Assembly (NCBI RefSeq): GCF_000376105.1
Contig: NZ_AQWM01000002.1
Location: 248,001-312,000, forward strand
DNA length: 64,000 nucleotides
Reading direction: 5' to 3'
Source: Asticcacaulis benevestitus DSM 16100 = ATCC BAA-896
GTDB lineage: Bacteria; Pseudomonadota; Alphaproteobacteria; Caulobacterales; Caulobacteraceae
Made by a program: the position numbers and the translations under genes. Shown here one piece after another: positions 31,678 to 53,813 of this stretch. Below the pieces are notes generated by a model. The model was not told where the DNA came from and did not search any database. It saw only the letters and a list, made by a program, of their open reading frames with translations. Numbering within the stretch: position 1 is the first letter of the stretch; every line of letters starts with the position of its first letter.

Positions 31678-33516
31678 CTATTCTACGGTCACCGACTTGG
31701 CGAGATTGCGCGGCTGGTCGACATCGGTGCCCTTATGGACAGCGGTATGATAGGCCAGTAGCTGGATCGGCACGGAATAAACCAGCGCGGCGATAAACGG
31801 ATCACAGTCGGGCGCCTTGATCACCTTCAGCGACTTGGCCGCGTCGCCGGACAGGGTCGGCACCTTGCCCGGCACATTGGTGATCATGATGACACGGCCG
31901 CCGCGCGCCGCCACTTCCTGCACATTGGAGGCCGTCTTTTCGAACAGGTCGTCATCGGGGGCGATGACCACCACCGGCGTCTTTTCGTCGATCAGGGCGA
32001 TGGGACCATGCTTCAGTTCGCCGGCGGCATAGCCCTCGGCGTGAATATAGCTGATCTCCTTGAGCTTAAGCGCGCCTTCGAGCGCCAGCGGGTACATGTC
32101 GCCGCGGCCGAGATAGATGACATCGCGCGCCTTCGACAGCTCATAGGTCATGCGCACGATGTCGGCGTTCATGCCCAGGGCTTCGGCGATCAGGCCCGGG
32201 GATTCGAGCAGGGTCTGGACGTAATGGGCTTCCTGCGCCTTCGTGATGCGACCGCGCTGGGCGGCCGCGCAAACGACCAGTGACAACAGGGCCGAGAGCT
32301 GGGCGGTGAAGGCCTTGGTCGAGGCGACGCCGATTTCCGGACCGGCATGGGTGGGCCACAGAAGATCGGCCTCGCGCGCCATGGTCGAGGTGTGGACATT
32401 GACCACGGCGGCGGTCATCAAGCCCTGATCCTTGCACCAGCGCAAGGCCGCCAGGGTATCGGCGGTTTCGCCCGATTGCGACACGGCGATGGCCAGCGTG
32501 CCCGGCGTCATGGCCGGGGTGCGATAACGGAATTCTGACGCGACCTCGACATCGACCGGCAGGCCGGCGATCTTCTCAAAGGCATAGCGGGCGATCGAGC
32601 CGGCATAGTAGGCGGTGCCGCAGGCGATGATCTGGAGGCGTGTGATCTTGGAAAAATCGATACCGGCCTTGATATCGGCGCGCACCGATTGCGCCACCGG
32701 ATCGAGATAGGCGGAAAAAGTGCGCTGGCAGCTTTCCGGCTGCTCATGCACTTCCTTTTCCATGAAGTGACGGAAAGACCCCTTTTCGACGAGCGCGGCG
32801 GAGGCCGAAACCGTGACGATGGGGCGATTGACCAGAAAACCGCCGGCATCGCGCACCTCGGCCGAAGCCTTATGCAGGATCACCCAGTCACCTTCTTCAA
32901 GATAGGTGACGCGCTGGGTGAAAGGCCCGACCGCTAGAGCGTCGGAACCGAGATACATTTCATCCTCGCCCCAGCCAATAACGAGCGGCGATCCACGACG
33001 GGCGCCGAGCAGAGTGTCAGATTCGCCGCTGACCAGCACCGCCAGGGCATAGGCGCCGTGAAGCTGATAGAGCACCGACTTGAAGGCGTCTTTCAGTTTC
33101 AGGCCGGATTGCAGGGCGCTATCAAGCAGATGGGCGATGACCTCGGTATCGGTGTCGGATTCAAACACCTGCCCCTGCGCTTTCAGGCCGGCCTTCAGTT
33201 CGGCATAGTTCTCGATGATGCCGTTATGGACGAGCGTCACCTTGCCATAGCTGTGCGGGTGGGCGTTGGCGACGGTCGGCGCGCCGTGCGTGGCCCAGCG
33301 TGTGTGGCCGATGCCGGTCGTGCCCGCGACCGGCTGCTCGGCGATGACCGCTTCGAGATTGCGGATCTTGCCGGCGGCGCGGCGGCGCTCAGGCCCTGCC
33401 TCCGTCTGTACGGCGATGCCGGCGGAATCGTAACCGCGATACTCAAGGCGCCGCAAGGATTCCAACAGACGCGGGGCGACAGGTTCGCGGCCGATAATAC
33501 CGATGATTCCGCACAT
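31678..33516 (-). CDS. glmS: Glutamine-fructose-6-phosphate aminotransferase GlmS
   Basis: The 612-residue enzyme makes glucosamine-6-phosphate, the entry to UDP-GlcNAc for peptidoglycan and LPS. The nucleophile Cys2 heads the glutaminase domain (MCGIIGIIG, RRLEYRGYDSAGIA). Two SIS domains bind fructose-6-phosphate (SQSGETADTLAAL, TKAFTAQLSALL), and the C-terminus KSVTVE is canonical. It diverges from the HTH-glmM gene, whose product isomerises GlmS's product, across a 277-base AT-rich gap with a possible operator. No glmS ribozyme is visible. Confidence 0.97.
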   Translation of the reverse strand: MCGIIGIIGREPVAPRLLESLRRLEYRGYDSAGIAVQTEAGPERRRAAGKIRNLEAVIAEQPVAGTTGIGHTRWATHGAPTVANAHPHSYGKVTLVHNGIIENYAELKAGLKAQGQVFESDTDTEVIAHLLDSALQSGLKLKDAFKSVLYQLHGAYALAVLVSGESDTLLGARRGSPLVIGWGEDEMYLGSDALAVGPFTQRVTYLEEGDWVILHKASAEVRDAGGFLVNRPIVTVSASAALVEKGSFRHFMEKEVHEQPESCQRTFSAYLDPVAQSVRADIKAGIDFSKITRLQIIACGTAYYAGSIARYAFEKIAGLPVDVEVASEFRYRTPAMTPGTLAIAVSQSGETADTLAALRWCKDQGLMTAAVVNVHTSTMAREADLLWPTHAGPEIGVASTKAFTAQLSALLSLVVCAAAQRGRITKAQEAHYVQTLLESPGLIAEALGMNADIVRMTYELSKARDVIYLGRGDMYPLALEGALKLKEISYIHAEGYAAGELKHGPIALIDEKTPVVVIAPDDDLFEKTASNVQEVAARGGRVIMITNVPGKVPTLSGDAAKSLKVIKAPDCDPFIAALVYSVPIQLLAYHTAVHKGTDVDQPRNLAKSVTVE

Positions 33517-33722
33517 GAGACAGGTTCCTTTTCGCCAGCTTCGGCAATTTGCGATTTTGAAATAGCACGTTTTAAATTGAATTGCTATAAAATGGTATTA
33601 CTAAAAATTGCCGTCACACGCGCCAAATTCGCCATAAAGCGCTCATTAACCTATCATATTTACAGTTTGCGCACCAAATGATGCAAAATTTTAACGCCGA
33701 CAGATGATTGCCAGTCGCATTA

Positions 33723-33740
33723 TGCAATAAATTAATTGCA
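33723..33740. promoter_or_regulatory. Palindrome between glmS and HTH-glmM
   Basis: TGCAAT-AAATTA-ATTGCA is a perfect inverted repeat 53 bases before the HTH-glmM start. TGCAAAAT also occurs directly repeated at 33682-33689 and 33738-33745. These are candidate sites for the HTH fused to GlmM (inference). Confidence 0.4.
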
Positions 33741-33793
33741 AAATGCCCTTCATCGGCCTATGGAACACGCGACAGAGCGAAAAAGGAGCGGAT

Positions 33794-35419
33794 ATGATCG
33801 AGAGCAAATGGGAGAAACTGCAGAGCGCGGTCAACGCCTCGGGCATTTCGATCAAGGACGTGGCGGAGGCCGCCTCCATCGCCCAGAGCAGCATTTTCCG
33901 CGCCATGAACGGCTCCACCAAGGCGCCGCGCCCGGAAACCGTCGATAAGCTGGAAGCCGCCTTTATCGCCCTCGTCACGCAAAAGATCGCCGACTACCGC
34001 CAGGCCATGTCGCTTTACGGCTACAACCCTATCCGCAACCGCAACGAAGAGATGGCCACCCACATGTCCGCCATGACCCAGACCCGCAAATATTTCGGCA
34101 CCGACGGCATCCGCGGTCAGGCCAACACCTTCCCGATGACCGCCGAGGTCGCCTACCGCGTCGGCATGGCCGCCGGCAAGATGTTCATGTCGGACAGTGA
34201 CCGCCGCCATCTGGTCGTCATCGGCAAGGACACCCGCCTGTCGGGCTATATGATCGAGCCGGCTCTGGTGGCCGGCTTCACGAGCGTGGGCATGGATGTG
34301 CGCCTGTTCGGCCCCCTGCCGACGCCCGGCGTGGCGATGATGACCCGCTCGATGCGCGCCGACCTCGGCGTCATGATCTCGGCCTCGCATAACGCCTTCG
34401 CCGACAATGGCATTAAACTCTTCGGCCCCGATGGCTACAAGCTCTCCGATGACGTCGAGCTGGCCATCGAAGCCCGCATGGATGGCAATATCCTGTCCGG
34501 CGTCGCCGATCCGGCCAAGCTCGGCCGCGTCGCTCGTGTCGATGACGCCCAGTGGCGCTATGTCGAAATCACCAAGGCCACCTTCCCCCGCCACCTGACC
34601 CTGAACGGCCTGCGCATCGTGCTCGATTGCGCCAATGGCGCCGCCTACAAGGTGGCCCCGCTGGCCCTATACGAACTGGGCGCCGAGGTCTTCCCGATCG
34701 GCGTCACGCCCGATGGCATCAACATCAATGAAAAGTGCGGCTCCACCCAGCCCGCCGCCATGGCGCAGAAGGTTAAGGAACTGCGCGCCGATATCGGCAT
34801 CGCGCTCGATGGCGACGCTGACCGGCTTGTGATCTGCGACGAAAACGGCACCATCGTCGACGGCGACCAGATCATGGCCATCATCGCCGGTAACTGGGCG
34901 AAGAAGGGCCTGCTCAAGGGCGGCGGCCTCGTCGCCACCGTCATGTCGAACCTCGGCCTCGAGCGCTTCATGGACAAGCAGGGCCTCAAGCTGGAACGCG
35001 CCAAGGTGGGCGATCGCTATGTCATGGAAAAGATGCGCGAAGGCGGCTTCAATCTCGGCGGCGAACAATCCGGTCACGTCATCCTGCACGATCACGCCAC
35101 CACCGGCGATGGCCTGATGGCGGCCCTGCAGGTGCTGGCCGTGCTGGTCGAGCAGCAAAAGCCGATGAGCGAACTCGGCAAGCAGTTCGACACCGTACCG
35201 CAACTTCTGAAAAATGTGAAATATACCGGCGCCAACCCGATGGAACTGGACAGCGTCAAACAGGCGATCAAGGCCGGCGAAGAGGCCCTGAAAGGCACCG
35301 GCCGCGTGCTGGTGCGCCCCTCCGGCACCGAACCCCTGATCCGCGTCATGGCGGAAGGCGATGACGCCGATCAGGTCAAGTCGGTGGTCAATTCGATCAT
35401 CGACGCTATCAAAGGATAA
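33794..35419 (+). CDS. glmM: Phosphoglucosamine mutase GlmM with an N-terminal Cro/CI-type HTH domain
   Basis: ATG 33794, behind AAAAGGAG at 33781-33788, starts a 541-residue product. Residues about 1-65 form a Xre-like helix-turn-helix ([24 protein letters not shown]) and about 25 linker residues follow. Then complete GlmM begins ([12 protein letters not shown]), with the phosphoserine loop [14 protein letters not shown], metal site DGDADR and phosphate-binding [11 protein letters not shown]. GlmM alone is about 445 residues. Internal ATGs at 34052, 34064 and 34073 lack a good ribosome site but could start plain GlmM. The enzyme converts glucosamine-6-phosphate to glucosamine-1-phosphate after phosphorylation of its Ser. 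The HTH suggests transcription control; that is inference. Confidence 0.9.

Positions 35420-53737: not shown

Positions 53738-53813
<76 letters not shown>

Follow-up and report, generated by a model that had tools for sequence, protein, structure and literature searches.

The glmM gene found in the 64,000-nucleotide stretch of Asticcacaulis benevestitus DNA analysed here (the window) encodes an enzyme and a predicted DNA-binding domain in the same chain, as indicated by its matches to profiles HTH_3 and TIGR01455. Comparison with related loci suggests that this head-bearing GlmM probably controls genes of its own pathway. An autoregulatory, bifunctional trigger enzyme, to which we give somewhat better than an even chance, would be an active mutase whose head sits on dyads between glmS and glmM and controls both divergent promoters, coupled to amino-sugar phosphate flux. 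The gene, its parts and its neighbour are as follows.

33794..35419, + strand: HTH-GlmM fusion gene, 541 aa (open frame; HTH_3 and TIGR01455; orthologous fusion in 19 of 25 Asticcacaulis genomes)
33794..33988, + strand: XRE/Cro-CI-type HTH domain, residues 1-65 (HTH_3 above cut-off; block pLDDT 84-96 over residues 1-60)
34016..34078, + strand: linker of low confidence, residues 75-95, containing internal ATGs (pLDDT <50 in the full-length model)
34091..35416, + strand: GlmM catalytic core, residues 100-541 (TIGR01455; alignment to solved GlmM 3pdk and 7ojr)
31678..33516, - strand: glmS, preceding pathway step, divergent (TIGR01135 and PRK00331 above cut-off)

The original prediction of an uninterrupted frame joining an Xre-like HTH to a full GlmM was confirmed: frame 33794-35419 (+ strand) encoded 541 aa with no internal stop, and both domain profiles scored above cut-off. 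Pfam HTH_3 matched residues 12-57 with 25.1 bits in the whole protein (cut-off 23) and with 28.9 bits when residues 1-101 were scanned alone, while NCBIfam TIGR01455 (glmM) matched residues 101-540 with 616 bits (cut-off 448). The divergence from glmS was likewise borne out, this gene lying at 31678-33516 on the minus strand, 277 bp away from the fusion gene, and scoring 780 bits to TIGR01135. Divergent glmS-glmM order was also encountered in six of the seven loci of other genera in the family, and is older than the fusion. The sole Rfam match in the window at the gathering threshold was a tRNA (53741-53813, minus strand).

Solved GlmM chains 3pdk and 7ojr aligned with the protein from residue 95 or 99 onward. 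Stretches SASHN, DGDADR, GEQSGH and RPSGTEP, which we take to be the catalytic serine, metal, sugar and phosphate loops, were all present and aligned with both chains, the metal-loop stretch being DGDADR in the fusion versus DGDGDR in the solved chains. The second GlmM-type match in the genome was a phosphomutase at 28% identity, leaving the fusion as the only GlmM found; it is therefore presumably the source of GlmM activity in its genome.

The architecture, sought in relatives, was found in 19 of the 25 Asticcacaulis genomes, each with one match and an open frame of at least 540 aa. Five others displayed plain GlmM (G005, G007, G008, G010 and G015) and one was cut by contig ends. A scan of genome contigs for the fusion confirmed ten loci, all named Asticcacaulis. 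Junction and start were identical in 18 fused loci, whose products were 540-543 aa long, and the N-terminal junction of G004 agreed with them; a stop between HTH and GlmM was looked for and found in none of the 19. At the GlmM junction (codons 98-102, 34085-34099), TAT TTC GGC was identical in all 18 loci and the preceding AAA in 17 of them, with synonymous identity at these codons ranking among the gene's highest. Two genomes displayed irregular contigs. In G004 (L072, C70), glmM continued after about codon 358 into ribosomal protein S1-like sequence in one open frame, and this contig is probably chimeric downstream, with a normal head and junction. G003 (L073, L074, L107, L108) harbored glmS and glmM pieces at contig ends, a matching 105-residue glmS piece appearing at two of them; owing to these contig breaks it was left out of every count of fused and non-fused loci.

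Since the fusion recurs in 19 of the 25 Asticcacaulis genomes, it is not an assembly error, a possibility ruled out by the recurrence of the same junction in 18 loci and in chimeric G004. The broader alternative, in which the frame arose by misassembly or represents a gene in decay, is extremely improbable: G004 attests that misassembly does occur among these genomes, but the shared junction, start and length, the junction of G004 itself and the low dN/dS given below all stand against it.

Outside the genus, the best match started at residue 84 or later in 35 of 36 genomes from elsewhere in the family and order. One candidate, G047, was rejected as a head-bearing GlmM, as its match from residue 39 crossed two stops and corresponded to a headless GlmM extended by chance. 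GlmM was detected in 266 of the 289 genomes of the class sample and, among the matches listed, only that of the window's genome aligned before residue 58. Pre-core stretches were scanned in 20 of the 22 other listed class matches with a frame of at least 528 aa, and none of the 20 (18 of them informative, the extensions of L146 and L152 being short) displayed a Pfam match at E 0.01. No N-terminal head on GlmM was found beyond Asticcacaulis in the family, order and class samples searched.

HTH_3 matched all eight aligned fusion N-termini (E up to 0.01). The full-length model (mean pLDDT 78, pTM 0.56) displayed a head with four helices, spanning residues 5-16, 20-26, 31-38 and the start of 47-74, of which helices 2 and 3 form the HTH; modelled alone, the head reached a mean pLDDT of 81.8. 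Top Foldseek matches of the head model were largely XRE-type regulators, with E of about 0.1 and probability up to 0.99, none of them at E 0.001 or better. VIA-align gave Z of 5 to 6 over 55-57 residues with SinR, DdrO, ClgR and 434 Cro, the highest values (7.8 to 7.9) being those of HNF-1A DNA-binding domains. The best E of the head profile against solved structures was only 0.039. Such structural scores are middling for a small helical domain and, with the HTH_3 match, identify a predicted fold rather than a binding site. According to the models, the head folds as a Cro/CI-type HTH.

Nine of ten pairwise comparisons gave a dN/dS of 0 to 0.16 for residues 1-65, the tenth (0.29) being nearly without changes, while the GlmM core displayed 0.01 to 0.13 in the same ten pairs. 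Head values exceeded core values in five of the ten, several-fold in three. These ratios indicate that the HTH head is under purifying selection. Residues 1-61 were net neutral (seven K/R, seven D/E). A sampled search of 385 class genomes, plasmids and viral contigs yielded no close relative of the head. Sampling 199 family genomes returned at least one weak match outside the genus (E 8.4e-4), and the 385 class genomes at least one (E 5.9e-5, residues 7-57); for some genomes in both searches, only part of the first-look candidates was scored. No donor of the head was found among these family and class genomes, plasmids and viral contigs.

Two features bear on where translation begins.

33783..33788, + strand: Shine-Dalgarno AAGGAG for M1 (sequence; predicted anti-SD pairing -8.1 kcal/mol)
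34064..34066, + strand: internal ATG M91, conserved, possible start of plain GlmM (locus comparison)

The strong Shine-Dalgarno sequence attributed to M1 was found as predicted (AAGGAG at 33783-33788, -8.1 kcal/mol). An upstream ATG at 33743 extends the frame but is not conserved, while M1 at 33794 is. Internal ATGs lie at 34052, 34064 and 34073, and the second of these, M91, was an ATG in the 18 fused loci and a Met in G004. Internal starts, M91 foremost, might then yield mostly plain GlmM and leave the head as a minor product, which we consider improbable. In its favour, M91 adjoins the start of plain GlmM in non-fused species, synonymous identity is high around codons 98-105 (ten representative loci), and predicted pairing before M91 amounts to -4.6 in the window and to -6.0 in L006, where it is stronger than at M1. 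In 17 of the 18 loci scored (G004 left out; L006 being the exception), the ribosome site predicted for M1 was nevertheless the stronger one, although only slightly in some of them, e.g. -2.4 versus -1.8, and purifying selection on the head also speaks against this alternative. The possibility, raised beforehand, that only plain GlmM is made thus runs against the predicted strength of M1, but a shorter product from M91 may be made in addition, since a conserved ATG stands near the start of plain GlmM.

The 277 bp between the two genes contain the candidate operators.

33563..33587, no strand: dyad A, TAGCA-N15-TGCTA, candidate operator, glmS side (TAGCA-N15-YGCYA present in all 19 fused regions and in none of the ten non-fused ones)
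33723..33740, no strand: dyad B, TGCAAT-N6-ATTGCA, candidate operator, glmM side (GCAAW-N6-WTTGC present in ten of the 19 fused regions and in none of the ten non-fused ones)
33549..33566, + strand: TTGC-N10-TAGC, overlapping dyad A (32 pattern matches among the 19 fused regions versus 1.0 expected)
33724-33741, other strand (-): second TTGC-N10-TAGC copy, overlapping dyad B (pattern search)

The comparison comprised 29 intergenic regions, 19 fused and ten non-fused (four from the genus and six from other genera); L027 (G028) was left out of the counts, and L023 (G005, with glmS elsewhere) stood outside the ten. Dyad B, TGCAATAAATTAATTGCA (33723-33740), is the palindrome that had been predicted between the genes. 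Its presence was verified, but only ten of the 19 fused regions displayed it, dyad A being more constant. It forms part of a near-palindrome (33717-33746) of which 26 of 30 bp are self-complementary. As 2.3% of 2000 shuffles of the window's intergenic region gave a GCAAW-N6-WTTGC match by chance, a single copy is weak and it is recurrence across species that counts. Both dyads were missing in all five plain-GlmM genomes of the genus; in G005, two upstream stretches checked apart displayed neither dyad nor TTGC-N10-TWGC.

The TTGC-N10-TWGC pattern was encountered 32 times in the 19 fused regions, versus 1.0 +/- 1.05 in shuffles (maximum six in 300), and once in the ten non-fused regions. It was located near glmS in 15 and near glmM in 17 of the 19 fused regions, its orientation near glmM being opposite between subclades. 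This pattern and those of the dyads were chosen after inspecting the alignments, and intergenic sequences inside one subclade are not independent. A search for spaced-pentamer pairs with no preset pattern returned nine pairs common to at least four of five subclade representatives, as compared with none in 30 shuffles; some of the nine are reverse complements of each other or overlap within a single element.

Exact TAGCA-N15-TGCTA occurred once in the window's genome, at glmS-glmM, versus one match for the reversed control. In the rest of the genus, matches off the locus were mostly GAGTGCTA repeats resembling CIRCE elements. The relaxed TAGCA-N15-YGCYA was found 12 times in the window's genome versus 25 for the reversed control, and TTGC-N10-TWGC 237 times versus 355; being no commoner than their controls, neither is a general promoter element. 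Palindrome YGCAAW-N6-WTTGCR occupied seven places in the same genome versus three for the control. By these searches, dyad A is exceptional through its conservation at the locus and not through counts, and dyad B is not confined to the locus. One of the seven palindrome sites lies between genes that on visual inspection resemble hprK and PTS EIIA/HPr. There the exact pattern was present in two of the 25 genomes, the window's and that of sister G022, so that a wider regulon is unsupported.

The head might also be functional otherwise, acting at other chromosomal sites, on a protein partner or in GlmM assembly, with the intergenic elements being core promoters or the site of another regulator; we regard this as doubtful, though far from negligible. 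TTGCA/TTGCG and TGCTAT indeed look like promoter hexamers. Moreover, all 25 genomes of the genus, fused or not, displayed TTTTGC(A/G)GTGC in front of a PTS EIIA-type gene (L154-L178), a promoter region with no relation to glmS-glmM, and TTGCA is for this reason maybe a -35-type element of the genus. TTGC-N10-TWGC was also found upstream of this PTS gene in two of the 25 genomes (G018 and G021). A TATAAT-like hexamer followed TTTTGC(A/G)GTGC in several genomes. Part of the conserved glmS-glmM intergenic sequence may accordingly be core promoter. Sigma-70-like matches on the glmM strand were located at 33629-33657 and 33769-33798 (shuffles give 0.8), both clear of dyads A and B. Against such another function, however, neither dyad A nor TTGC-N10-TWGC was enriched genome-wide, the ten non-fused regions need promoters as well and yet lack both dyads, and the PTS palindrome was exact in those two genomes only. 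Dyad symmetry and its absence from the ten non-fused regions would not be explained by a core promoter.

A combined tree of GlmS and the GlmM core included 23 genomes of the genus and six outgroup rows, without G003, G004 and L027 (G028; no glmS start found upstream). Placing the fused genomes in a single clade was rejected on this tree (p-AU 0.0057), which requires three changes and fits a basal gain of the head in the genus followed by two losses. One of these, shared by G015, G007, G008 and G010, concerns a clade nested on well-supported branches, while placement of the other, in G005, depends on a fork supported at 80/92. When only well-supported branches are considered, two changes are still needed, so that a single gain with a single loss is the minimum; the head therefore appears to have been lost once with good support, and a second loss is likely. 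A GlmM-only tree again nested the G015 clade within the fused loci, at lower support (94/95), and gave G005 no firm position. G005 displayed neither the head nor the divergent glmS-glmM arrangement. Its glmM (L075, L106) adjoins cytidylate kinase-like and ribosomal protein S1-like genes, as read by eye, with glmS located elsewhere. Having been lost on the tree, the head is dispensable.

The enzyme-regulator reading draws on the occurrence of the fusion in 19 of 25 genomes, the head dN/dS, the HTH_3 match, the fold and the status of the fusion as the only GlmM found in its genome. To these are added dyad A (all 19 fused regions, none of the ten others), dyad B (ten of the 19 and again none), their patterns near glmS and glmM being no general promoter elements by the genome-wide counts of TAGCA-N15-YGCYA and TTGC-N10-TWGC, and the pentamer pairs obtained free of presets, as well as the loss of the head on the tree and the missing dyads where the head is missing. 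This shared presence and absence of head and dyads is the best evidence, and rests on very few independent events. Counted against the reading are the promoter-like TTGCA, the nine of 19 fused regions in which dyad B is missing, its seven versus three places genome-wide, head dN/dS above that of the core in five of ten pairs, the net neutral residues 1-61 and the dispensability of the head.

Mechanistically, the HTH heads would be paired via the GlmM dimer, allowing dimeric DNA binding, and the paired heads would occupy the dyad sites of the glmS-glmM intergenic region. Binding would most likely repress, and less likely activate, both divergent promoters. Occupancy of the active site, through substrate or phosphorylation state, would alter the geometry or affinity of the heads, and promoter activity would in this way be tied to amino-sugar phosphate flux. 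A fuller version, which we put forward tentatively and hold to be possible rather than probable, is that GlmM, which catalyses the second step towards UDP-GlcNAc, itself senses flux and serves as transcription factor for steps one and two: dimers of HTH-GlmM would sit on two dyads and be released according to active-site occupancy, and head and operators would have been gained once and later dropped together once or twice.

No description of an HTH-GlmM protein was found among open-licence papers, as judged by titles and abstract openings. The regulator BzdR carries a DNA-binding domain that is presumably of the XRE type. This domain is joined to a shikimate-kinase-like domain, as described in PMC3602430, and BzdR and HTH-GlmM are alike in combining an N-terminal DNA-binding domain, a linker and, at the C terminus, a domain of metabolic-enzyme origin. 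The enzyme domain of BzdR has, however, lost its activity and binds benzoyl-CoA (PMC3602430), whereas HTH-GlmM keeps the GlmM motifs and is the only GlmM found in its genome. Intact motifs and the position of sole GlmM argue against a BzdR-like loss of catalysis.

PutA, NadR and BirA are trigger enzymes with a built-in HTH, in which an active enzyme and a DNA-binding domain act on genes of their own pathway. HTH-GlmM resembles them in uniting an enzyme and a predicted DNA-binding domain in one chain, although they belong to other enzyme families and another pathway. Plain GlmM is represented by CCNA_00116 of Caulobacter crescentus (PMC13046382). It shares the catalytic core with the fusion and, outside the genus, was without the N-terminal head in the genomes searched. 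As related species lack both head and dyads, Asticcacaulis offers a natural comparison for gain and loss of an enzyme's regulatory role.

GlmM provides the precursor for peptidoglycan and lipopolysaccharide. The glmS ribozyme, NagC and GlmY/GlmZ adjust glmS expression to amino-sugar supply. To our knowledge, known controls of the GlmM pathway are RNA elements or separate regulators, and these three are indeed RNA elements or separate proteins, in contrast to the reading proposed here, in which the regulator would be GlmM itself. If true, a mutase equipped with a DNA-binding head would represent direct enzyme-to-promoter feedback in a cell-wall pathway.
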